The notes under the pieces were generated by a model, which ran no database searches, was not told the DNA's origin, and saw nothing but the letters and a program-made list of their open reading frames with translations. From a virus, in IMG/VR virus record IMGVR_UViG_3300015202_000030, positions 1 to 36,373 of that record: DNA of 36,373 nucleotides; one strand, 5' to 3'. Of this stretch, positions 4,576 to 36,320 are shown piece by piece. A program made the translations under genes and the position numbers. Within the stretch, counting starts at the first letter, position 1. Every line of letters starts with the position of its first letter.

Positions 4576-5691
4576 ATGTATATTCCAAGCAAAGGCTCTC
4601 CTAGCGCACCTTGCTGGGTTATTGTAGATACCCCTATGTCTGGAGATGTAGATAAGGGGTATCTTTTTTCTTCTTCTACCGGATATGTTTTCGATAAAAT
4701 GATGCAGGAAGCAGGAATTCCAAATTACTATGTAACCTGCTACCGCCCCGATACAGAGCATAATGATGCTTATGCTAATATTCCAGGAGATCTTAATCTT
4801 TACAAACCCCCGATTATTATCCCACTTAGCGCTATTGGGCATAAACTTCTTCCAGTAATGAGTCCGAGACGGCGCAAGAAAAATTTCAATCCCGATAAAG
4901 ATTCCGAACTTTCTAAATACGCCGGAAGCTTAATGCAATCAGAACAACTTAATTACCCGCATTATGTAATTCCTACTTATCATCCTGTTGATATAATACG
5001 GCAATGGAAACTTCGAGATATTATAATAAGTTGTGATCTAGGCAAAGCAGCCGCGGAATTAGATTTTCACAAGGCAAATAACTATGCTCTCAACCCTCTT
5101 CCAATCCGAAATCCAAAAATTGATTTCGACTCGTTCGACGAACTTATCTGGTTACTTAATAGCTGGAACGGGCTTCCTTATATTAGTAACGATATTGAAA
5201 CCATCTACCCGCGGGCACCTACAAAAACTCAACCCAGTCAATTTTACAAAATTCTTCCGGGCTATCCTGTCACTATTGGTCTTGCGCCTAGTAAAGATTT
5301 TGGCATATCTTTTGATCTATTTCGTGAAAGTAAGTCTGAGACGAGAGAACTCTGGCGGGTACTTTATAAACTCCTTAAAGATACTCCTAGTATCGGACAA
5401 AATTTCTTTAATTTCGATGCAAACTTCTACGAGTGTTTGGGATTTACTCTTCCGTTAGAGTTGTGTCGAGATACTATGATTTTGCATCATCTTCTTTGGG
5501 CTGAACTTCCACATAAACTTCAATTCTTGGCTCGCCAATATACTAGAGAGCCTTATTGGAAAGACGAAGGCGCAGGGTGGAGTCCTAAGAATATGCGCGG
5601 GATGAAAATATATAACTGTAAAGACGTTATGGTAACTTATGAAATTTTTGAGGAAGAAATGAAAGAATTGAAAGAGCGAGGGCTTGAATAA
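4576..5691 (+). CDS. Uracil-DNA-glycosylase-like domain fused to a family A polymerase 3'-5' exonuclease domain
   Basis: A 371-residue two-domain protein. Residues about 10-165 follow the uracil-DNA-glycosylase superfamily layout: a strand and glycine-rich loop (VIVDTPMSGD, 16-25), GYLFSSSTGYVFDKMMQEAGI in place of the family 4/5 GxPFVGxxG...AGI element, YYVTCYRP (51-58) and PTYHPVDIIR (133-142). Active-site residues are degenerate, so glycosylase activity is doubtful. Residues about 180-371 are a DnaQ-like exonuclease: ExoI D206-I-E208, ExoII GQN...D281, ExoIII Y346-xxx-D350. This is the proofreading half of a family A polymerase. The polymerase half is a separate gene 1.2 kb downstream. UDG-like N-termini are known on some phage family A polymerases. 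The two products presumably assemble in trans. Confidence 0.75.
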   Translation: MYIPSKGSPSAPCWVIVDTPMSGDVDKGYLFSSSTGYVFDKMMQEAGIPNYYVTCYRPDTEHNDAYANIPGDLNLYKPPIIIPLSAIGHKLLPVMSPRRRKKNFNPDKDSELSKYAGSLMQSEQLNYPHYVIPTYHPVDIIRQWKLRDIIISCDLGKAAAELDFHKANNYALNPLPIRNPKIDFDSFDELIWLLNSWNGLPYISNDIETIYPRAPTKTQPSQFYKILPGYPVTIGLAPSKDFGISFDLFRESKSETRELWRVLYKLLKDTPSIGQNFFNFDANFYECLGFTLPLELCRDTMILHHLLWAELPHKLQFLARQYTREPYWKDEGAGWSPKNMRGMKIYNCKDVMVTYEIFEEEMKELKERGLE

Positions 5692-6923: not shown

Positions 6924-8456
6924 GTGCAAGAAAAAATAACAGCACAATACTTACACGCGCTACAAAGCCTCTATCATCGTATTGATGCTAGGGGCATTGT
7001 AGTTGATCGTGGGAGACTTAGAGATGCTTCGGTATATATTGACAACGATATTAATAAACAGTGTGCTATTGTTAGCTCTCATTGGAGCATACCATGTTAT
7101 ATCGGGGCGGCGAATAAGCCAGATGCGGTTCTTGGAAACTCTATTAATCTCAATAGTAGTTCAGGTGCTAATACGCCGCTTCAACATCTAAAAAACATGG
7201 GATTTAAAATTCCCAAAGTCGGGGGTCGAGATGAAGAAGGTAACTATATTAGTAAAGAATCTCTCGCAGAACTCACTCTCCAAAAAATATATGCGACAAA
7301 TCAATTTAACACCCAAGGCGGCGATCCCGCTATTCGAGCACTTCTTCGGATTCGGGAACTTGGGACTTTACGTGCCCGTTACATCAACGCGAATCTCTAT
7401 AGAAAAAATGGACAAGAAATTTTTCTTAGCAATTACAACTGCGCTGGAACAGTCACAGGCAGAAGAGGTTCTAGAAAACATGCTTATGGCTATGGAGGTA
7501 ATGCACAAAACTTTCCTAAACACGGCGAACTTGCTAAAATCTTCCGGCGTTGCTTGGTAGCACGTCCCGGCAAGATATTTCTAATGGTCGATCAAATGCA
7601 AGCCGAAGACTGGCCTACATCAGCACTTGCTAATAACACAGAAGCTCTTGATGATCTACGCAACGGTATTGATAGACATAGAAAACTCGGTTGTCTTATC
7701 TTTGATTTATCTTGGAATCACTATACTGATTCTCAGTGGAAAGACAGTATTGAAAGATTCCTTGGTAAAAAAACGCGTCACGCTAATAATTATGGCATGC
7801 GTGGTAATACTATGTCAGATTCTCTTGCTAAAGAAGGTCATTCACTAACTCCTCTTCAATGTCAACATATTCTCGACAAAGTAAATTTAGTAGATCCTTC
7901 CGTAGATAAAGTATTTCATAAATACATAAAGGATTGCTTATATGCAAATAGAACACTGCAAACCCCATTTGGTCGAGAACGAATCTTCTTTGGACTTCGT
8001 GGGGGAGAAGTCGGAAGCAACAATAAAATATTCAACGAAGCGTATTCTTACATTCCACAGTCTACGATCGCTGATAATAATGGATTTGCTGTCTATAAAC
8101 TTGAATCAGGAGATTACAAAACAAGAGGCAATGTTATACAAGAAGGCCATGACTCTATTATTCAAGAGGTTGACGATTCTGTTGATGCTATCTGGACTGG
8201 CATCCAAAAGACTAAAACTGCATATTGTAGAACAATTCGCTTCCACAATGGAATTGAAGTTCAAGTCCCAACAGAAGGAGAAATTGGATACGATTTCTAC
8301 GGAACCGAAACCTTTAAATCCAACATAACTAAGACTAAAAAACTAGAAGACCTCTCTTACGCGGACGTTCAAGCTTCATACTACAAGCTCCAAGAATATC
8401 GTGAAAAACAGAGAGACATAGATGCCGCCTCGGAAGCTAAATACAAATTGGATTAG
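6924..8456 (+). CDS. Family A DNA polymerase, polymerase domain only
   Basis: A 510-residue replicative polymerase lacking an exonuclease domain (that is encoded separately upstream). Landmarks: TVTGR (176-180) and NAQNFP (193-198) before the palm; motif A D223 in VDQMQAED; O-helix R278, K282, Y290-G291; PQSTIAD (378-384); motif C H409-D410. Two departures stand out. The residue aligned with E. coli Pol I F762 is H286, and motif C reads HDS instead of HDE. Both metal-binding aspartates are kept, so it should be active. Translation starts at GTG 6924 after an AGGA site. The 3' end overlaps the helicase gene by 35 bases. Confidence 0.85.
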   Translation: MQEKITAQYLHALQSLYHRIDARGIVVDRGRLRDASVYIDNDINKQCAIVSSHWSIPCYIGAANKPDAVLGNSINLNSSSGANTPLQHLKNMGFKIPKVGGRDEEGNYISKESLAELTLQKIYATNQFNTQGGDPAIRALLRIRELGTLRARYINANLYRKNGQEIFLSNYNCAGTVTGRRGSRKHAYGYGGNAQNFPKHGELAKIFRRCLVARPGKIFLMVDQMQAEDWPTSALANNTEALDDLRNGIDRHRKLGCLIFDLSWNHYTDSQWKDSIERFLGKKTRHANNYGMRGNTMSDSLAKEGHSLTPLQCQHILDKVNLVDPSVDKVFHKYIKDCLYANRTLQTPFGRERIFFGLRGGEVGSNNKIFNEAYSYIPQSTIADNNGFAVYKLESGDYKTRGNVIQEGHDSIIQEVDDSVDAIWTGIQKTKTAYCRTIRFHNGIEVQVPTEGEIGYDFYGTETFKSNITKTKKLEDLSYADVQASYYKLQEYREKQRDIDAASEAKYKLD

Positions 8457-10174: not shown

Positions 10175-10196
10175 CAAGCACTAATAAACAAACAAA

Positions 10197-10232
10197 TAGG
10201 GAAGCCCTTGATTGGGCTTCCCTATATTTTTG
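10197..10232. terminator. Bidirectional terminator between the convergent arms
   Basis: A perfect 11-bp stem, TAGGGAAGCCC (10197-10207) and GGGCTTCCCTA (10214-10224), with a 6-base loop. Rightward it is followed by TATTTTTGTCTTTTT. On the minus strand it is followed by a stretch rich in T (complement of AAACAAACAAATAG). It ends both the replication arm and the fibre genes. Confidence 0.85.
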
Positions 10233-10253
10233 TCTTTTTACATTTCAACTAGC

Positions 10254-11367: not shown

Positions 11368-11874
11368 TTATTTTGTTGGTGCGGTGGGGTTACAAATTAA
11401 ATAAAAATATTCCTTATTATCGCTAGCAGTTGTATAACCGAATCTACAATTACTAAACAAACCGTCAGGTAAATTCATTGTAAGAACTGCGCCGACAGCC
11501 GGAATAGTAACTGGCGCGATGAAAGCTGGTATTGTAACAGCTTTTAAAATACCTGGAGCAGCAGCAAAAGTATAAAAAATTGTCTGTGTTTTAGTTGTTT
11601 GAAGTACATTAAATTCTTTTACCTTACCGGATGCTGGATCGCCTAATATATTACTATTTACCGTAATCAGTCGTTGACGATCATAACTACTTGGCCCTAT
11701 CCATCCTCCAGTCGCATCTGGAGTAGGAGCAATCCCGTACCTATACATAGCACCAATAGGCATATTAACAATCGTACATCCTTGAGAATCGTCACAAATT
11801 TTTACCCAGCTTTGCGCTGTTCCACTAAGTACGAAGCTAAAAAAGAACAAACAGGGCAAGATTTTTTTAAACAT
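11368..11874 (-). CDS. Secreted protein of unknown function with Sec signal peptide
   Basis: 168 residues with a clear signal peptide: MFKKILP, hydrophobic CLFFFSFVL, and SGTAQ as probable cleavage region near residue 21. The mature protein has cysteine pairs (KICDDSQGC; later NCRFG and LICNP) that could form disulfides after export, and an alternating hydrophobic pattern indicating beta structure. An AGGAG site lies 5-6 bases before the ATG, which makes the start firm. The start lies within the 3' end of the LuxR-type gene. No family is recognised; an envelope or periplasmic role is inferred from the signal peptide. Confidence 0.55.
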   Translation of the reverse strand: MFKKILPCLFFFSFVLSGTAQSWVKICDDSQGCTIVNMPIGAMYRYGIAPTPDATGGWIGPSSYDRQRLITVNSNILGDPASGKVKEFNVLQTTKTQTIFYTFAAAPGILKAVTIPAFIAPVTIPAVGAVLTMNLPDGLFSNCRFGYTTASDNKEYFYLICNPTAPTK

Positions 11875-12104
11875 TCTATCTCCTCTTGAAGTTTAAGTAC
11901 AGCAAAAGCGCTAAGTTCAGCCCGTGTATTTACATCACATTTGTAAAAAATATTACGCATATGATTTGATACAGTGTGTACAGATATAGCTAAAATCACA
12001 GCTATATCTAAATAAGCTTTTCCTTCAGTGACATATTTGTAAACGAGAGCCTCCCGTTTAGTAAGAAGCTCTCCAGGTTTAGGTATAGGTTTTTTTCTAT
12101 ACAT
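11802..12104 (-). CDS. Solo LuxR/GerE-type HTH transcription regulator
   Basis: Starting at ATG 12104 the product has 100 residues. Residues about 13-70 match the LuxR C-terminal HTH closely: LTKRE, then EGKAYLDIAVILAISVHTV with the scaffold and recognition helices, SNHMRNIFYKCDV, and NTRAELSAFAVL. There is no sensor or autoinducer domain, so it is a DNA-binding domain alone, followed by a short helical tail with CPVC. The ATG lies 1 base after the fibre gene's stop and has no Shine-Dalgarno, suggesting reinitiation. The 3' end overlaps the following secreted-protein gene by 73 bases. It may control host envelope genes or late phage genes; targets are unknown. The family call is strong. Confidence 0.8.
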   Translation of the reverse strand: MYRKKPIPKPGELLTKREALVYKYVTEGKAYLDIAVILAISVHTVSNHMRNIFYKCDVNTRAELSAFAVLKLQEEIECLKKSCPVCSFLASYLVEQRKAG

Positions 12105-12105
12105 A

Positions 12106-15042
12106 TTAATAGCAATAAATAGTAGTACTAAATGCAATTGGCCCTGTTGGATTTACACTCCAGTTAGGGGTATTTATAAATACTTGAAGCAAATCCCCTA
12201 CTGCAATAGTTCCAGCGACATTCAACAAACTAGAGTGCTGCCCAGCTGTACTCCAAATAGTAAGGCTCTGAGTAGTCATTGACACTCCATTTTTGTAAAG
12301 AGTAAAGCTAGGTAGATCAGTGCCAATACCAACTGGCGGAGAACCACTAGCAACAATCTCTGTAACATACACAGAAAGACCACTAACAGTACATGCCACC
12401 GGAGATCTAGAACTAACACTATTATCAGTCGTAAGCACTGGTGGATCGCCAAGATAATAGTTTTGATTAGCAACTATAGTTCCAGTCCCAGCAAGCTTAA
12501 ACAAAATTTTAGTTGCGGTAGGGCAATTTATACCATTAGATAAACAAACATTAATACTATTATTTTGAAGAGTACCCCCAATAACATTCCAAGTTTGACT
12601 TACAGTGCTAGATTTTATTTGTTGTATAAAACCACTAGGAGCTTGGGATTCGAGCCAAGTAAGATCAGGAACAATTCTTTGACAAGACGGATTATTAGCT
12701 GGCCCGTCTTGTCCTTGTGCTTGACATTCAACTCTAAAAATTGCTCCGCTTTCAGTGATTCCAAGTCCTTGATGTGGAAATGTATGAAAAACAAAAGCAT
12801 GATTCCAAGCTCCTCCTACTTCTCTAATAGTAGGGGGAACTCCTTGCGCGTATAAAGCTTTAGTCGGGTCATTACTAGCTTGGTATCCGGTAGTAACATC
12901 TCCATCATAATACCAATCCGGAGTCTGATTAGCCCAATAATCTAAACCAACTCCATTTTGGGGAAATTGAGTTGCTAAAACTCCAGAAGGGCCATATCGT
13001 CTAGAATTGCGAACAAAAGGACTTTGCGCAAATTGACGATTATTTGCTACATACATATTTGTATTAGGAGTAGTTTCAACTAAATCCCCAGTTATCCATT
13101 TTGTAGTATCCATTAAAGGATAGGCTAAAATATATCCAGTACTAGGACTAAATGTAATAGGATCTTGTACTTTATACGTCCTAGTAACAGGATAAAAGAA
13201 AATAGAATTAGCCCAAGTTGTTTGTAGCATAATAGAAAAATCAGAAGGGCATCCAGAGCCTCCGGTAAGGAGTTTTAAATCGTAAAATTTATAAGTCCCA
13301 GCCGCTCCTCTAACCCATTGAAAAGTAGGAAGTAGAGAACAAGTACTAGAACCCCCAAAAGTATAAGTAGGTGGAGGAAAAAACCAAAGATAAGAATTTG
13401 CAGATCCTGTGTTTTGGTAATTATTAGTAGTCATACTAACAGCTGTAACTACCCCAGCTACAATAGTAGGTGTAGCAGTTCCAGCAAGAATTGGAGTAGT
13501 TGTATTATACAAATTCATCTTTAATTCTGTTTGAGCTGCGGACGAGTTTGTATATACAATTAACTTACTGCCCGAAGAACTATACCCGACAATAGGAAAT
13601 GTTACATGAATATCAGAATATTGAATCTTACTACTAGAAGTAAGTGTTCCTGCAAGAATAGTCGATTTAGTAGAAGAAACACCAAGACCAACTCCGGCGC
13701 CCCAAGTAATAAGTTCTCCAGGATCGTGTGGCCTATGCAGGGATAAAACAAGATGTGTAGAATCAGGCCTAGAAACTACAAGAGCTGATTCCCAGTTATC
13801 GTGCGCTCCCCAAATACTTACTCTACTAGTGCTCGCTATTAAAGAAGACGTATCCCCACTTGTAGTTAAACATTGAGTATAAGTGAGTCCGCCACTACCA
13901 TCTGGATTTGTATTATAAGGATCAATAGCAGTTAGAGTTCCTCCAGGTGCGGTATAATTACCCCAATTAGCTGCGATTACAGTAGCCGGGCAATTTCCGT
14001 CATATTTTTGCAAATCCGCTCCTGCAACTACAGTTGCAATATGCAAAGTAGTTCCCAGCAATCCATCAAGAGACGTTTTAAGAGTACTATTTACATCAAG
14101 CTCTATAAATCTAGAATCTCCTGTATAGTTTAAAATCCCTACAACATCTCCAGTTGGATTTATAGTTCGTGATTTATTAATTAAAAGATTATCAGTACCA
14201 GCTCCATTCAAAGCACTTCCAGAAGTGAGCTGAATTTGAGCGTTTCCGTGAAAATCAGTACCGAGTAAATTTAAAATCCCCGCTTCGGGGTTGTAATCAA
14301 ACCCCATAAAAATACGCTCATACTCATTCCCTTCATGGAACCCTTCTGTGATTCCTCTATTATTTGATGTTAATGATGTATAAACACCGTCTCCAGGGGA
14401 ATTTTGAACTATTTGATAATCGTGAAATCCTCCGCCTTGTATTGGGGAGTTGATATACATATTAGCATAATCATACGCCCAATCTCCACCGCATGAATCT
14501 GTACTAACAAGTTGAAAACTACAAGTACCATTCACATAAAAATCAGTAGTCTTAGCCCCCCAAAAATCATGCAAGCTATAAGGTTTATCGCCAGCATAAT
14601 TATTAGTAAAAGGAACCTGAAATGGATAAATTGGATTGTTTGTTTTATACGGATTTGTATAATTAAGAGCTTGATTTGCAATACCTTGAGTTAAATATGG
14701 AATTGTTTTAGTCGCGCAATCCATATACATAGCTGTCGGACTAACAGCACTATTAGTGCTTGGGTAATACGAAAAAGGACAATTAATTGTCCCAGGATTA
14801 ACAATACCAGAACCGCTTCCAGTACCAATAGGATTCCATGCAGTACCGTTATAAAATTGTATATATTTATTAGTGCTATCATATACAATAGCTCCTTGGT
14901 TCAATGGAATAGCACCTGTCTGTGCTGTGTTATAAACTAGGGGTATAAATAACGCTTTTACATTATTTACAGGCCAAGCTCCAGCCGCAGTGATAAGCGG
15001 TACTATATTAATACTCCCCCCTGTAAGCCCTACATTAATCAC
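12106..15042 (-). CDS. Large tail fibre/spike-type protein
   Basis: 978 residues, the longest protein in the window. The N-terminal part contains NQGAIVYDSTNKYIQFYNGTAWNPIG, a strand-turn pattern common in phage fibre and adhesin proteins. The centre is beta-rich with many aromatic and Ser/Thr residues, and the last 100 residues resemble a C-terminal jelly-roll-like trimerisation domain. It begins at GTG 15042, overlapping the stop of the signal-peptide gene by four bases (GTGA), with no Shine-Dalgarno, so its translation should depend on that gene. It has no signal peptide of its own. Receptor binding is inferred from size, composition and position. Confidence 0.6.
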   Translation of the reverse strand: MINVGLTGGSINIVPLITAAGAWPVNNVKALFIPLVYNTAQTGAIPLNQGAIVYDSTNKYIQFYNGTAWNPIGTGSGSGIVNPGTINCPFSYYPSTNSAVSPTAMYMDCATKTIPYLTQGIANQALNYTNPYKTNNPIYPFQVPFTNNYAGDKPYSLHDFWGAKTTDFYVNGTCSFQLVSTDSCGGDWAYDYANMYINSPIQGGGFHDYQIVQNSPGDGVYTSLTSNNRGITEGFHEGNEYERIFMGFDYNPEAGILNLLGTDFHGNAQIQLTSGSALNGAGTDNLLINKSRTINPTGDVVGILNYTGDSRFIELDVNSTLKTSLDGLLGTTLHIATVVAGADLQKYDGNCPATVIAANWGNYTAPGGTLTAIDPYNTNPDGSGGLTYTQCLTTSGDTSSLIASTSRVSIWGAHDNWESALVVSRPDSTHLVLSLHRPHDPGELITWGAGVGLGVSSTKSTILAGTLTSSSKIQYSDIHVTFPIVGYSSSGSKLIVYTNSSAAQTELKMNLYNTTTPILAGTATPTIVAGVVTAVSMTTNNYQNTGSANSYLWFFPPPTYTFGGSSTCSLLPTFQWVRGAAGTYKFYDLKLLTGGSGCPSDFSIMLQTTWANSIFFYPVTRTYKVQDPITFSPSTGYILAYPLMDTTKWITGDLVETTPNTNMYVANNRQFAQSPFVRNSRRYGPSGVLATQFPQNGVGLDYWANQTPDWYYDGDVTTGYQASNDPTKALYAQGVPPTIREVGGAWNHAFVFHTFPHQGLGITESGAIFRVECQAQGQDGPANNPSCQRIVPDLTWLESQAPSGFIQQIKSSTVSQTWNVIGGTLQNNSINVCLSNGINCPTATKILFKLAGTGTIVANQNYYLGDPPVLTTDNSVSSRSPVACTVSGLSVYVTEIVASGSPPVGIGTDLPSFTLYKNGVSMTTQSLTIWSTAGQHSSLLNVAGTIAVGDLLQVFINTPNWSVNPTGPIAFSTTIYCY

Positions 15043-15314: not shown

Positions 15315-15675
15315 CATCATACTCCTTCCAATCCACCCCAAGTTCAGCAGCTATTAGTCTTTCAATACTTGTAGCAAAGAAATGCTCTTTCTTATACGGA
15401 GCATTAGGAGCATCTCCAGGTTCGTCAGTATTACCATCGGCGCGATTTTTCTCAAATTCAATATCAAACGCAGTTATTTGTTTCTCACAAATCCCACGCT
15501 TTAAACAAAGCAGCGCTTCTGTTTGTTCATGCAGCGATACAAGATTTTCAAAATCTTCATTTCCCATGCGACTTACTCTAATGGTTAATCTAGTATTATC
15601 TGGATTAAACCACCAATCTCCAACAGTTTCATACCGTTGTTCTCTATGCGGAATTACTTTCACGTCGATCATCAT
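15295..15675 (-). CDS. Conserved-type phage protein with an HExxE motif
   Basis: 126 residues. A helix carries H49-E50-Q-T-E53 in SLHEQTEALLCLKRGI, and a second histidine, H98, lies in APYKKEHFFATSIE. This could make a small metal site like that of zincin peptidases or other metal-dependent enzymes, but the canonical HExxH is absent. It shares one base with the stop of the ATP-grasp gene (TAATG), so the two are translationally coupled and likely act together. Its function is unknown; a metal-dependent processing role is speculative. Confidence 0.5.
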   Translation of the reverse strand: MMIDVKVIPHREQRYETVGDWWFNPDNTRLTIRVSRMGNEDFENLVSLHEQTEALLCLKRGICEKQITAFDIEFEKNRADGNTDEPGDAPNAPYKKEHFFATSIERLIAAELGVDWKEYDDAIQAL

Positions 15676-16949
15676 TAGAGTAAGCCCATCCTTGAAAGTT
15701 CATAATACCGTTGTGTAGTAGTTTTTTGTATGTCTGTACGAATTTGCATATTAGGAATTTTTAAATCTTTTACTTTTTGATCTACAATTTCAAAAGCCTC
15801 GCCAATACTATTCCCGTGGCCCATAGGCACTGCTATAAAACCACTATGGCCTGCTGTTACAAGTTCATTATCTTCAACCATTACATCGTACATAAAAGTA
15901 CTTTGATATTGATCTTTAGTAATTCCTTTTACAGGAATTCCTTGCGGGTGCTTACCTTTAATTTCAGTGGGATAAGGAGGTATGCTTACTCTAATTCCGG
16001 CTGCAAATTCTCCACGCCAACTCTGATCCGGTACTTGTCCGGTTGCAATTTTATGAAACATTTCGCCAAGATCCCCACCGTACATTTGAAACAAAGTAGC
16101 ACTTGCATCATAGCCAAATCTAGGAGTCCACTCAAGTCCAAACAATCCACGTTCAGTAGCAATTGTATTAAGATCAATCATTCCAGTATAATTAACTCGT
16201 TGCAAATACTCTCGCATCTTACCAAGCCCTTGTTTATAAAGCTCTGAAGACTCGTTAAGATAAAATACAAGATTCCCAGCGCAACCAGTATTAGGGCCGT
16301 GATTCTTGTTCATAAACTTTTTTTCTTCTAAAGTTACATTAACAAGATAAAAATCATCCCCATTAAAATACCCTTCTACTGATACCTCGGTGCCTTTGAT
16401 AAACTCCTGGAGTACAAAAGGAGCGCCTTTAGTTTTAATAAAAAGTTTATCTAAATTTGCCAACATATCTTCAGGAGAAGTGGCAACGTAAGTAGTATCA
16501 GTATCTTGATCTTGTCCCCCGTCAGGTTTATAAACGTAGCGCTTATTCGACTTCCGCACAAATATTTTTGCTGCTCCAACATCTGTAAATCTTTCATACG
16601 GAGGAACTTGAATTCCACACTCTTCCATTGCTTCTAAGCCAAACATTCTATCATCTTCAACCGCACAATTAAACGCGCCGTCTCCAATAGTAGGACATAG
16701 AGTCGCGCTAAACTCAGCTTGTTTTTCTTTTCCAGTAAGATCAAACAAAGAAAGATCATACTTCCCATATGCCGGGTATCCACTTTTTCCACGTCCTCGT
16801 ACAAAAGGCGCGGGCACTATACCACCAAGAATATTTTCGTAATCAGGCTCCGTAAGATAATAATCAACTTTATGACCTTCTTCAAGAAGGCGCAAAGCAA
16901 ACCATGCGCCGTAACCTGTATACGATGATAGTGCAATTCTCAACGACAT
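15675..16949 (-). CDS. PurD (GARS)-like ATP-grasp ligase
   Basis: 424 residues resembling phosphoribosylamine-glycine ligase. Matching elements: an N-terminal nucleotide-binding-like loop (SSYTGYGAWFALRLLEEGHKV, residues 8-28), K141 in YVYKPDGG, E182 and E188 in QEFIKGTEVSVEGYF, HGPNTG (217-222) followed by CAGN in place of GGMG, and LEWTPRFGYDA (272-282) supplying E273 and R277 for metal binding. True PurD uses phosphoribosylamine, glycine and ATP in purine synthesis. This copy lies in the late arm beside fibre genes rather than with nucleotide metabolism, and substrate loops differ, so it may ligate another substrate. AAAGGAG precedes the ATG. Confidence 0.7.
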   Translation of the reverse strand: MSLRIALSSYTGYGAWFALRLLEEGHKVDYYLTEPDYENILGGIVPAPFVRGRGKSGYPAYGKYDLSLFDLTGKEKQAEFSATLCPTIGDGAFNCAVEDDRMFGLEAMEECGIQVPPYERFTDVGAAKIFVRKSNKRYVYKPDGGQDQDTDTTYVATSPEDMLANLDKLFIKTKGAPFVLQEFIKGTEVSVEGYFNGDDFYLVNVTLEEKKFMNKNHGPNTGCAGNLVFYLNESSELYKQGLGKMREYLQRVNYTGMIDLNTIATERGLFGLEWTPRFGYDASATLFQMYGGDLGEMFHKIATGQVPDQSWRGEFAAGIRVSIPPYPTEIKGKHPQGIPVKGITKDQYQSTFMYDVMVEDNELVTAGHSGFIAVPMGHGNSIGEAFEIVDQKVKDLKIPNMQIRTDIQKTTTQRYYELSRMGLL

Positions 16950-27080: not shown

Positions 27081-27122
27081 TAAAACCCCGCTAGAGTTGG
27101 GGAGATGGCCGCTCTAACGGGG
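27081..27122 (-). terminator. Rho-independent terminator downstream of the major capsid gene
   Basis: On the minus strand CCCCGTTAGAG pairs with CTCTAGCGGGG (plus 27112-27122 with 27086-27096; 11 bp including one G-U), loop of 15, followed by TTTTAATTT. It would end or reduce transcription after the capsid gene, a common way to give the capsid protein the highest expression. Confidence 0.75.
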
Positions 27123-27124
27123 CC

Positions 27125-27175
27125 GAGCTATTAGCAATCCCAGCCCCCTTGACAAGACTTTTGCGCTAATAGCTC
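27125..27175 (-). ncRNA. Perfect 11-bp stem-loop in the 3' UTR of the capsid mRNA
   Basis: GAGCTATTAGC (27125-27135) and GCTAATAGCTC (27165-27175) are perfect inverted repeats around a 29-base loop. Only two bases separate it from the terminator hairpin. It could protect the capsid mRNA 3' end from exonucleases or be an RNA processing site. Together with the terminator it fills the 134-base gap; there is no ORF. Confidence 0.55.
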
Positions 27176-27192
27176 TACCTCGTTGCTAGTAC

Positions 27193-33067: not shown

Positions 33068-33331
33068 TTAATGATGAAATGATTGAATTAACTCTGCTAT
33101 TTGACGTACAGACCAAACTATAACACCCCCCGCAGCAAATTTAACAATAACAGCTTGTGTAGCTTCCATTTTTGTTAAACTTAAAACAAGAGTTCTTATT
33201 TCAATCTGCATTGCTTTTAAAATTGATTGGTTTTCTTCATGTTTAGGTTTGTTTACATTTTCGTCGTGTTGTTTTATTCGTTCGTCCACGAGAACAATTA
33301 CCTCAGAACGATTCATAGTAACATCTGACAT
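33068..33331 (-). CDS. Coiled-coil protein with C-terminal membrane segment (XhlA-like)
   Basis: 87 residues: a charged N-terminal helical part (residues 8-55, with EVIVLVDERIKQHDENV) and one C-terminal membrane segment (about 58-80). This topology resembles XhlA-type haemolysin/holin-accessory proteins and some small inner-membrane spanins. It directly follows the large terminase gene, sharing one base, and precedes two other hydrophobic proteins. Family call tentative. Confidence 0.5.
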   Translation of the reverse strand: MSDVTMNRSEVIVLVDERIKQHDENVNKPKHEENQSILKAMQIEIRTLVLSLTKMEATQAVIVKFAAGGVIVWSVRQIAELIQSFHH

Positions 33332-35169
33332 TATTGTAATCCCAGGTTTGAATTTCGTATATTTCTTTTATATTGTTCTCTACGTTTGAGTATTTCAATT
33401 TCTATTTCGTCCGTATTTGTATCGAAATCCCAAACTTGTGGGCCGTAACCAAGTGTATCAAGTACGTCTCTAAGTTTTCCCGCCGGATAGCTTTCAAATT
33501 CTTCTAAGAATTCTTCCATACCAAAAGAATTAATCCAAAATTCTCCACGTTCAAAAATAGGCCCAAGACCATCAATACGCATTATTTTTGCGTTAGCAGT
33601 TTTAGGAGTTTTAAGTTCTACTATTTTTAAATTCTGATACCTAGAATCAGTAGAAGCTTTTTCTTTAATTATGTAGTCTAAGTGATACTTGAGATATTTT
33701 TGAGCTGCAATTGTTTCAAGATGTATCTCATCTAGTTTCCATACTTCTACTGCTAGATGAAGCATTTGCTCGATAAATTCATCTGTACCACAACTTTTAG
33801 CCCAAACATCAAGAAGATAAACTCTCCTAGGATTTTCAGCAATCCCTGTTACAGTAATTGCGTGTCTGCATCTTCCTTCGTTACCGGAATGATTAGGATC
33901 TGCAATCATGTAACGCTTAAGATTACGAGGAGCAATATCTTCTTCTACATCCCCTTCACGAACTTTGTGATGAATTAAAACTTTATGTCGAACTCTAGTT
34001 GTAGATTTATTAAAAAGTGACGTATCGGTATACGAATAAGCCAAATCTTTAATAAATTCATACCTACGTAAATGTTTAAGTTCAAATTTAATTTCTGCCG
34101 GATTAATTGGAACATTAAGATACTGACACGAAAAAAGATATGAACCTAGACGTTTTTTGTATCGTGCGAGTTTTTCAATGTTGAATGCTTCAGGAAAGAT
34201 TGGAGTACCAAATGGATGAAGCGAGCAACAGCCGCCGAGAGCACTATGAGTAGTAAAGTTAAAATACTGCTCATTAGCTCTAATATAGGAATTAAGGTCT
34301 TTATATGACCAACGGTTTCCGACGACAATCTCATCATTATCTCGTCCTCCGTCATCAATAGCAGCATCGAAAGCACCGACAAGAAGCTGATGATATTCGA
34401 TAGTTTTTTGCATCGTTGTTTCAGATTCATACGCTGCGCGTCCTACTAAATCGTCTTGAATTACTAGATCATAGTGTCTCGACTGAAGCGCAGAACCAAC
34501 TCCAATAAAATCATAAGTACCTTCTCCTTGAATTCTACCAGCCGCAGTACGCATATGATGAAAGGATTCATCGTTTTGTGTGCAGCTTGAATCTGGCAGA
34601 ATTTCTGGAAACAAGTATTTAAAAAAGTCATTGTCAGAATAAGTACTACTAATACGTACACCAAGTTTTTTAGCATTAGTAATTACTTCAGAGACCAAAA
34701 GAATTCTAATATCTTGATTATGAACAAAACGCATCCACTGTATATAACGATCATTATAACCCATGCTACGCATATAAAGCTCATCCTGATTAGAAAAAGG
34801 GAGAGCGCGCCACATTGGGTACACTTCGGAATATACGGTACTTTTAAAATGGTCACGAGGGATTTCAATAACTTCTTTGAGCCCATCTTTTTCAACCACT
34901 TTACACATTTGATAATGTAGATTTTGTTCTGCGATTGGATTTTTTTGAAATTTTCGCTTTTTTAAAACTACGGTCGCAAAATAATACAAAGATCCAAGTG
35001 AATTCAATCTATGAATCACACGCAGAGTTTTATCGTCGGGGTGACTAGGTGGAATAATATTCCAACTTCTAGTAACACTAGAAGGCAAATACAATCCACC
35101 TGTTTCGCTATACGCAAACTCATCTGATTTATCAAGAACATCTTGTAAATCTTTTTGTGTATAGCTCAT
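33331..35169 (-). CDS. terL: Large terminase subunit (packaging ATPase and nuclease)
   Basis: 612 residues. Walker A-like IPRDHFKST (103-111) fits the PRxxxKS form of T7 gp19-type terminases. Walker B is HYDLVIQDD (232-240), with the acidic pair D239-D240. The C-terminal RNase H-like nuclease has D424 in MIADPNHSG, D454 in VYLLDVWAKS and a late acidic site near DVLDTLGYG. It powers DNA translocation into the procapsid and cuts the concatemer. It is preceded by the small terminase gene and a 205-base structured gap. The Shine-Dalgarno before its ATG is weak, so its expression may depend on the upstream RNA structure. Confidence 0.9.
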   Translation of the reverse strand: MSYTQKDLQDVLDKSDEFAYSETGGLYLPSSVTRSWNIIPPSHPDDKTLRVIHRLNSLGSLYYFATVVLKKRKFQKNPIAEQNLHYQMCKVVEKDGLKEVIEIPRDHFKSTVYSEVYPMWRALPFSNQDELYMRSMGYNDRYIQWMRFVHNQDIRILLVSEVITNAKKLGVRISSTYSDNDFFKYLFPEILPDSSCTQNDESFHHMRTAAGRIQGEGTYDFIGVGSALQSRHYDLVIQDDLVGRAAYESETTMQKTIEYHQLLVGAFDAAIDDGGRDNDEIVVGNRWSYKDLNSYIRANEQYFNFTTHSALGGCCSLHPFGTPIFPEAFNIEKLARYKKRLGSYLFSCQYLNVPINPAEIKFELKHLRRYEFIKDLAYSYTDTSLFNKSTTRVRHKVLIHHKVREGDVEEDIAPRNLKRYMIADPNHSGNEGRCRHAITVTGIAENPRRVYLLDVWAKSCGTDEFIEQMLHLAVEVWKLDEIHLETIAAQKYLKYHLDYIIKEKASTDSRYQNLKIVELKTPKTANAKIMRIDGLGPIFERGEFWINSFGMEEFLEEFESYPAGKLRDVLDTLGYGPQVWDFDTNTDEIEIEILKRREQYKRNIRNSNLGLQ

Positions 35170-35185: not shown

Positions 35186-35211
35186 GCGACTGCCCCTCCG
35201 GGGCAGATCGC
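35186..35211 (-). promoter_or_regulatory. GC-rich hairpin 16 bases upstream of terL
   Basis: CTGCCCC/GGGGCAG (7 bp, 3-base loop) extended by GCGA/TCGC past one bulge. The GGGG run can instead pair with CCCCGG at 35213-35218, which is also used by helix A of the tract, so mutually exclusive folds exist. The minus-strand loop region contains GGAGG, but it is about 28 bases from the terL ATG, too far for a normal ribosome-binding site. Confidence 0.6.
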
Positions 35212-35388
35212 TCCCCGGTTTCTTTTTGGCCTGCTGAAGGTCTACGTGTTTAGCTAAATCTTAATAATAAAAGCCTAACTAATAAAGTTGATCCTGTCTC
35301 TTCAGCGGGGCCACTTACAGCTCAAACCGGGGAAGAAGAACTTGTAAGATTTAGGGTTGGCAGGAGGTTGAGTATTAGTTAGGCTTTT
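35186..35388 (-). ncRNA. Structured tract between small and large terminase genes with four crossed long pairings
   Basis: No gene fits in 35170-35374. Four complementary pairs are present. D: 35269-35284 with 35373-35388, 16 bp perfect. C: 35254-35263 with 35345-35354, 10 bp. A: 35212-35221 with 35324-35333, 10 bp. B: 35233-35239 with 35300-35306, 7 bp, continued by GGCC 35228-35231 with 35309-35312. A and B nest as one interrupted stem. C and D lie in its loop and pair with sequence outside it, D reaching into the end of terS, so they make pseudoknots. A separate 11-bp hairpin with one bulge closes the tract (35186-35211). Function unknown: riboregulator of terL, structured RNA or packaging-site DNA. 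Confidence 0.65.
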
Positions 35389-36034
35389 GAGTTGAAAGAT
35401 CGACTTGGACTAGAGCTTCGAGGGTTTTTTCAGTATTGGACTCGCTCATTCCACGAACCACGCTTGCAGCATTTAAAGCGCTTGTGGTAAAGGAGCCGCC
35501 CCCGGCTGAGATTGAAACATCGGTAATGGGAGTAGAAGTAGGAGCACTAGCAAGCAGTGAGAGTAAATTTTGCTGCACTTGTGGATCTACATTCATATTT
35601 GGTTTCTGCTCCACAGTAACGCTGGATTTAGAAACCTTAGCCATAGTACCTTCACGATCCATTACTTCAAGTGCGGCTTTGTACTGAAGCCCTGGGCCAT
35701 GCTTTCCAGTAAGAGCGTTACGAATAACCATCATAGAAGATGGAATCATACTCTTCAACTCATCCCGCATATTCTCGGAATTAGCTCTAATATCCATATC
35801 ATACGGACTTGTAAGATTAGTAGACAACTCAATCATCTTAGCGTGAAACGCTGGGAGTTGCCGGATTAAAACTACCGTCTGCTTATTACACCCAAGATGA
35901 TTTGCGATCTGTTCGTTTGTGTAATTAGCCGGATCAATAGTAAGCCTGGCTATAACCTCAATCTTCTTCGCTCGTTTCCACGTCATGCCTAACCGTGGAT
36001 GCAATGCCGTAGGCTTACCGGGTGCGCTGGCCAT
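35375..36034 (-). CDS. terS: Probable small terminase subunit
   Basis: 219 residues. A helix-turn-helix lies at about residues 38-60 (YTNEQIANHLGCNKQTVVLIRQ), preceded by a basic TWKRAKKIEVIARL. A helical central region follows, where small terminases oligomerise (about 90-140), and then a Gly/Ser/Ala-rich tail. Position directly before terL supports small terminase, which recognises the packaging site. GAGG about 10 bases before the ATG. The end of the gene supplies one arm of the 16-bp inverted repeat in the following tract. Confidence 0.65.
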   Translation of the reverse strand: MASAPGKPTALHPRLGMTWKRAKKIEVIARLTIDPANYTNEQIANHLGCNKQTVVLIRQLPAFHAKMIELSTNLTSPYDMDIRANSENMRDELKSMIPSSMMVIRNALTGKHGPGLQYKAALEVMDREGTMAKVSKSSVTVEQKPNMNVDPQVQQNLLSLLASAPTSTPITDVSISAGGGSFTTSALNAASVVRGMSESNTEKTLEALVQVDLSTQKPN

Positions 36035-36179
36035 TTATAAAATCCTCAATAGAAGTATCTGGGGGCGGGGGCTGTACGATTTGTGAAGGAGTAATAGCAG
36101 CAGGAACATTCAGGGATTTATCCCAAGCATAATCTATCTTGAACTTAGCAAGAGCTAGAATTATTTTAGATTCCGCCAT
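36015..36179 (-). CDS. Small first gene of the leftward arm
   Basis: 54 residues from ATG 36179 (MAESKIILALAKFKIDYAW...), with a proline-rich QPPPPDTS section. The open frame extends to 36278, but the promoter at 36241-36269 would place the transcript start near 36234, excluding the longer form. It overlaps the small terminase start by 20 bases. No family recognised. Confidence 0.5.
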   Translation of the reverse strand: MAESKIILALAKFKIDYAWDKSLNVPAAITPSQIVQPPPPDTSIEDFINGQRTR

Positions 36180-36240
36180 AGATTTTACCCGCCTCGCGGC
36201 CACAAACCGCTCCCGCACCCCGCCTCGCTCAGATTCCCTT

Positions 36241-36269
36241 ACTATATAAGGATACGGGCAAAATGTAAA
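36241..36269 (-). promoter_or_regulatory. Sigma-70-type promoter of the leftward structural arm
   Basis: On the minus strand TTTACA (36264-36269) and TATAGT (36241-36246) are separated by exactly 17 bases; each is one base from consensus. Transcription would begin near 36234 and run into the first leftward gene at 36179. It is the only good promoter noticed for the roughly 26-kb structural arm. Confidence 0.7.
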
Positions 36270-36320
36270 CCCGCGCATTACACTACCAAAACCCTATATT
36301 GCACCTTCCCTCAACCAACT

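Follow-up and report, generated by a model that had tools for sequence, protein, structure and literature searches.

To our knowledge, phage RNA folds with several crossing helices have seldom been described. The put RNA of phage HK022 consists of two simple hairpins with conserved sequence. Phages T4, T2 and RB69 carry in the leader of gene 32 an H-type pseudoknot that serves as an autogenous translational operator and is absent in RB49, and a review of T4 regards it as possibly the sole viral pseudoknot in translational autoregulation (PMC3014915). The phi29-type pRNAs keep their structure and function with about 12% of their sequence in common (PMC5340915). The neighborhood of terminase genes is also favored by homing endonuclease genes, which collaborate with introns that lack an ORF (PMC10448857).

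The locus described here comes from an uncultured virus, record IMGVR_UViG_3300015202_000030, whose 36,373 bases we analyzed as a whole and refer to as the window. Between its genes for the small and large terminase subunits (terS and terL) lies a tract in which an H-type pseudoknot is combined with further helices, and whose place is taken by an HNH gene in close relatives.

Results

Both terminase genes of the window lie on the minus strand, separated by a gap of 205 nt, and an element of about 200 nt (minus strand 35388-35190) runs between them on the same strand (Table 1). Read 5' to 3' on that strand, its helix arms follow the order A5-P2a-(C5)-P2b-D2a-D1a-A3-D1b-D2b-C3-E. In the window, the long helix A is crossed by a two-part helix D, in which D2 prolongs D1 beyond a small internal loop, and the two form an H-type pseudoknot. 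The loop of hairpin P2 is C5, which pairs with C3 on the 3' side, and the fold ends 3' with the GC-rich hairpin E. Arm A5 lies partly within terS, where it spans the final codons (Lys-Pro-Asn-stop). At the other end of terS, an 87-aa ORF (36015-36278, minus strand) overlaps the start of the gene; it is present in most relatives and has no Pfam or PHROG match.

Table 1. Coordinates of the terminase genes and of the helix arms between them (positions in the window).
Feature	Position	Strand	Remarks
terL, large terminase subunit	33331-35169	-	phrog_38, E 2e-53
terS, small terminase subunit	35375-36034	-	phrog_7344, E 8e-5
Helix A, 5' arm (AAAAGCCTAACTAATA)	35373-35388	-	16 bp, perfect; pairing kept with other letters in relatives
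Helix B arm	35345-35354	-	10-bp pair with 35254-35263; overlaps P2; not conserved
Hairpin P2, 5' arm (CTTACAAGTTC)	35338-35348	-	5+5 bp
Helix C, 5' arm (TTCCCCGGTTT), inside P2 loop	35324-35334	-	10-11 bp
Hairpin P2, 3' arm (GAGCTGTAAG)	35314-35323	-	5+5 bp
Helix D2, 5' arm (TGGCC)	35309-35313	-	5 bp
Helix D1, 5' arm (GCTGAAG)	35300-35306	-	7 bp
Helix A, 3' arm (TATTAGTTAGGCTTTT)	35269-35284	-	16 bp, perfect
Helix D1, 3' arm (CTTCAGC)	35233-35239	-	7 bp
Helix D2, 3' arm (GGCCA)	35227-35231	-	5 bp
Helix C, 3' arm (AAACCGGGGAG)	35211-35221	-	10-11 bp
GC-rich 3' hairpin E (CTGCCCC GGA GGGGCAG)	35190-35206	-	in seven of eight variants

The tract had first been noticed in an initial annotation made from the sequence of the window. 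All four inverted pairs that it reported are present: one perfect pair of 16 bp (35269-35284/35373-35388), two of 10 bp (35254-35263/35345-35354 and 35212-35221/35324-35333) and one of 9/10 (35230-35239/35300-35309). Its GC hairpin, its order of the arms and its 5-base spacer between two of them were likewise correct. P2 and D2 had been overlooked, and we added both to the fold.

Elsewhere in the window, a family A DNA polymerase appears to be split between 4576-5691 and 6924-8456 (both plus strand), in the order of a protein that weakly matches uracil-DNA-glycosylase and 3'-5' exonuclease, four small ORFs and the polymerase domain. An ATP-grasp protein resembling phosphoribosylglycinamide synthetase (15675-16949, minus strand; GARS_A, E 7e-12) is encoded among late genes, and a protein with a LuxR-type DNA-binding domain (11802-12137, minus strand; GerE, E 2e-12) between predicted late genes. 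A strong inverted repeat between two convergent gene blocks (10183-10238; 25-nt arms, 84%) is probably a two-way terminator, and another (27116-27184; 20-nt arms, 85%) immediately follows the gene for the major head protein on its 3' side.

The claim that so many pairings would not arise by chance holds. The best crossed A-C-D set of the window has a stacking energy of -60.3 kcal/mol, below every one of 200 dinucleotide shuffles (mean -36.6, minimum -48.0). The same is true of all eight distinct sequences described below, none of which has its own score reached by any of its own 200 shuffles. When only nested folds are allowed, the window tract is mildly better than shuffled sequence (z -2.8 on the minus strand, -2.3 on the plus strand), a weak signal that is expected where the structure is pseudoknotted. 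Our own scan for crossed helices ranks the tract first in the window; we rejected the scan as a discovery tool, as its specificity is too low.

We collected relatives by searching IMG/VR with TerL and TerS. Seventeen contigs, the window included, carry the element at the same place; they form one clade of uncultured viruses with TerL 74-83% identical to that of the window. Among them are eight distinct sequences: those of the window, L001 (=L003-L005), L002, L006 (=L007), L010, L013 (=L016), L028 (=L029, L030, L050, L052) and L034. The order of helices is identical in all eight, and the strongest helices of each gap line up in that order. The letters themselves are so divergent that a plain MAFFT alignment of all eight misaligns the helices, and an ordinary sequence search therefore fails to link the variants. 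Unpaired letters that are shared are scattered, namely an A-rich stretch before C3 and, in some variants, AAAU before P2. The P2/C5 stretch (CTGTGC..CCCCACTCACAAC) is nearly identical in L006 and L013, which belong to different TerL subgroups and differ in the rest of the element, reflecting either recombination or local constraint.

Comparison of the variants also separates the conserved helices from those private to the window. Of the helices in the initial annotation, A, C and D are kept in the relatives. Helix B has no counterpart in the other seven, where the best pairing of the same regions is 4-6 bp, equal to shuffles; as it also clashes with the conserved P2, we dropped it from the fold. 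None of 300 shuffles of the window reaches 10 bp at that place, and helix B may be a genuine private alternative of the window. No other perfect 6-bp GC-rich hairpin comparable to E occurs in the 36-kb window, and related records have few. Hairpin E is found in seven of the eight variants (L010 is without it), and, given this recurrence and its rarity elsewhere, we count it as part of the element. The proposed competition of this hairpin for a CCCCGG motif does exist in the window, where C3 and E clash (CCGGGG/CCCCGG), and in similar form in L028, but it has no consistent counterpart in the other variants and was dropped as a conserved switch.

The helices persist while their letters change. 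Between the window and L001, whose cores are of equal length, three clean double changes are seen: GCUGAAG/CUUCAGC to GCCGAAG/CUUCGGC in D1, UGGCC/GGCCA to UAGCC/GGCUA in D2, and UAAUA/UAUUA to UAGUA/UACUA in A. Helix A is wholly rebuilt in L006 (AAGACGAAGCC/GGCUUCGUCUU), L013 (GCGAGGUCUACUU/AAGUAGACCUCGC) and L028 (UGCGGUACACAG/CUGUGUACCGCA). In an alignment of the seven relatives, window excluded, which was arranged by hand and padded with N (the two-base bulge of L001 omitted, part of L006 misplaced by MAFFT), 97.5% of 162 cells are paired and 21 of 25 base pairs have two-sided changes. The covariation score is 0.83 against 0.22 for shuffles, 0/500 of which score as high, and pairing falls to about half when partners are slid by one column. 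Compensatory changes thus exceed both the shuffled and the slid controls. With the same hand-set arms, arms from one phage pair at 88-99% and arms from different phages at 42-72%.

As a manual alignment makes pair counts lean towards structure, the shuffles of single sequences and a leave-one-out search carry more weight. With the window left out of its training set, a covariance model recovers the window tract with 26.0 bits on the minus strand and 22.3 bits on the plus strand, and places C, D1 and E as we had drawn them by eye. When the whole window is searched with default speed filters, the best match is the plus-strand mirror of the tract (22.3 bits, E 0.0013) and the minus-strand match is missed; C and D are nested and so look similar on both strands. 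A pseudoknotted structure with covarying pairs in related phages, which the initial annotation had named as its key check, is strongly supported by the shuffles, the alignment of relatives, the arm swaps, the G-U pairs described below and the leave-one-out model. We are highly confident that a conserved pseudoknotted RNA exists at this locus.

Three features indicate the strand of terS and terL as the one that is read: the order of A, the G-U wobbles that occur in A and P2, and the preference of P2 for the sense strand. P2 alone folds at -7.6 kcal/mol sense versus -3.5 antisense in the window, and better in the sense direction in five of the eight variants. The conserved element thus almost certainly acts as RNA, read from terS to terL.

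Its placement between genes is fixed. In all eight variants, the start of the element falls either in the final codons of the upstream gene or no more than about 10 nt from that gene's stop codon, and 23-93 nt separate its end from the following start codon. The gene ahead of it is terS except in L034, where a 60-codon ORF comes after terS and takes that position. The next gene is terL in the window, L010, L013, L028 and L034, an HNH gene of 103-111 aa in L002 and L006, and a 64-aa ORF in L001. Ribosome-binding sites, where recognizable, lie 3' of E, outside the fold. We found no promoter-like site directly upstream of the element and no intrinsic terminator on the sense strand at or after the tract. 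We considered an element for stop-codon readthrough and rejected it, because more stops soon follow in frame (doubled in L001 and L002).

Three further related contigs carry intact terS and terL with a 135-aa HNH gene in place of the RNA (L011/L012 and L027), and in all three the replacement is exact, from the terS stop codon to terL. L012, with the HNH gene, and L016, with the RNA, share 99.93% identity across the 6,846 bases that begin near the start of terL, and 96% as far as the terS stop; between these points there is no alignment (L012 4574-4987 versus L016 4728-4987). L027 (HNH) and L050 (RNA) show the same pattern with 92% identity downstream. No RNA copy was found elsewhere in the two longest records of the HNH type (47.8 and 29.0 kb, maybe incomplete). 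This exact swap between close relatives marks the slot between terS and terL as an exchange site in which the RNA is not strictly required. From the aligned sequences, the HNH gene probably took the place of the RNA, at least in the L011/L012 and L027 lineages.

The possibility that the element belongs to a known family found no support in Rfam 15: at curated cut-offs, neither the window nor the loci of nine relatives match any family, and up to E 10 there are chance-level matches only. The phage pRNA family is among those without a match, and the scan found no group I or group II intron, HEARO or ribozyme catalytic core. Nor does the element resemble a riboswitch: the shared letters are scattered and form no highly conserved ligand core, and an expression platform is missing, with neither a sense terminator nor a masked ribosome-binding site.

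The element was also sought more widely. In TerL relatives of at most 55% identity (L036-L049, L075) and in the named phages Pf-WMP3, TR020, ctLwi270 and ANMV-1, cyanophages among them, the space ahead of terL is small or absent, or is occupied by unrelated genes, and no TerL relatives were found in bacterial genomes. A DNA-pattern search of viral contigs, in which one pattern used a gap that excludes L028 and L010 and so covered the L034 type only, returned the known places and coding coincidences in L098, L100 and L103; the same kind of search of genome contigs returned no copies. No second copy was found elsewhere in the window or in related records. In the open-access literature on terminase-linked structured RNAs, we recognized none as this RNA. 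Given the lack of an Rfam match, of a recognizable description and of the element in distant TerL relatives, we take it as an undescribed RNA family, so far limited to one clade.

Discussion

The initial annotation is partly supported: the observation itself is confirmed, and the roles that it offered fare less well. What is kept across the clade is shape rather than letters. In this the element differs from riboswitches that bind a ligand and from catalytic RNAs, and it resembles a mechanical barrier, a scaffold or a shape bound by protein. As the element also has a fixed place from stop to start codon within one operon, a cis role in the mRNA is favored. Our tentative best guess is a cis element of the packaging-operon mRNA whose action depends on its shape. 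In such a model, the element would be transcribed within the packaging-operon mRNA and would begin to fold after ribosomes clear the upstream stop codon, since in the window A5 lies in the final terS codons. The folded element would then work by its shape as an obstacle to ribosomes, nucleases or polymerase between two genes, and might thereby keep the expression of terS apart from that of the following gene and set both. Against a cis role stand the downstream gene, which is not always terL, the three contigs without the element, and the position of the ribosome-binding site outside the fold, where no direct masking is visible.

A trans-acting RNA would give the same sequence picture as a cis element. 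Such a small RNA, excised from the terS-terL transcript or expressed from a promoter of its own, could be a structural component of the packaging machine or act on the host. Almost the entire intergenic space is structured, the location is in the packaging operon, the fold is conserved rather than the letters, as in phi29-type pRNAs (PMC5340915), and the loop-to-tail helix C could conceivably form between molecules. However, there is no promoter-like site directly upstream and no sense intrinsic terminator after the tract, Rfam has no match, its phage pRNA included, and the element is absent in three relatives with intact packaging genes. On balance we consider this main rival somewhat unlikely.

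The swaps with HNH genes raise another explanation, in which the RNA is a selfish or mobile cassette of an intron-like or guide-like type, and it and HNH homing endonucleases compete for one site. Two close phage pairs differ exactly in this way (L012/L016 and L027/L050), two more variants carry both the RNA and an HNH gene (L002 and L006), and the known preference of homing endonucleases for terminase neighborhoods and their collaboration with ORF-less introns (PMC10448857) would fit. Yet the element has no conserved catalytic core and no match to group I or group II introns or HEARO, it has no second copy at another site in the window or related records, and an HNH gene that homed into and overwrote a resident RNA would explain the swap equally. 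We therefore regard a mobile cassette as doubtful.

A loss of the RNA in close relatives that keep intact terminase genes speaks against an essential part of packaging. That the element is a second, unrelated packaging-associated phage RNA, made as a pseudoknot from the terminase operon and contributing to the assembly of a terS/terL packaging motor or timing it, is a long shot.

The position beside terS and terL, and the inverted repeats themselves, would also suit a pac or cos site, or another site in DNA that TerS recognizes. We hold this to be very improbable, as arms in the order A C D A D C have the crossed topology of an RNA pseudoknot, G-U pairs occur, the letters are not conserved, as would be unusual where a conserved TerS reads the site, and the tract is missing in near-identical phages. 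Least probable of all is a riboswitch or attenuator that controls terL by alternating folds, to which the leader-like position and, in the window, the competition of B with P2 and of E with C would point: the helices kept in evolution are topologically compatible, the competing pairings are not conserved (with B private to the window and overlapping P2, the argument that not all pairings fit at once fails), there are few conserved unpaired nucleotides and no sense terminator, the ribosome-binding site is outside the fold, in three of the eight variants the RNA is separated from terL by another gene, and three contigs that keep both terminase genes intact have no RNA.

The function of the element is directly testable, given its strong covariation, its eight natural variants and the two phage pairs in which an HNH gene replaces the RNA, and L012 and L016 amount to a ready-made natural experiment of RNA versus HNH gene. 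The locus also illustrates how annotation of genes alone can overlook a structured RNA that is not in Rfam and whose variants are too divergent for sequence search.

Four known systems resemble the shape-dependent cis element that we tentatively favor, each in part. HNH homing endonucleases, encoded by free-standing genes in the packaging regions of phages, hold the same terS-terL slot in close relatives (cf. PMC10448857), but they are protein-coding, whereas the present RNA encodes nothing apparent. The put RNA of HK022 is likewise a structured phage RNA that acts in cis within an operon without masking a ribosome-binding site (PMC9378689); it is found in early operons, where its target is the transcription elongation complex, whereas the present element lies in the packaging operon. 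The pRNAs of the phi29 family share with it the tie of a phage RNA to packaging and a shape that is kept with little sequence (PMC5340915), but they form a three-way junction with interlocking loops, while the present RNA has no Rfam match and is dispensable in some phages. The gene 32 pseudoknot is H-type, precedes a gene for the phage's DNA machinery on the mRNA, and is patchy among relatives (PMC3014915). It has one downstream gene and a known protein ligand, whereas the gene downstream of the present element varies, and it is much smaller, without helix C, P2 or E.
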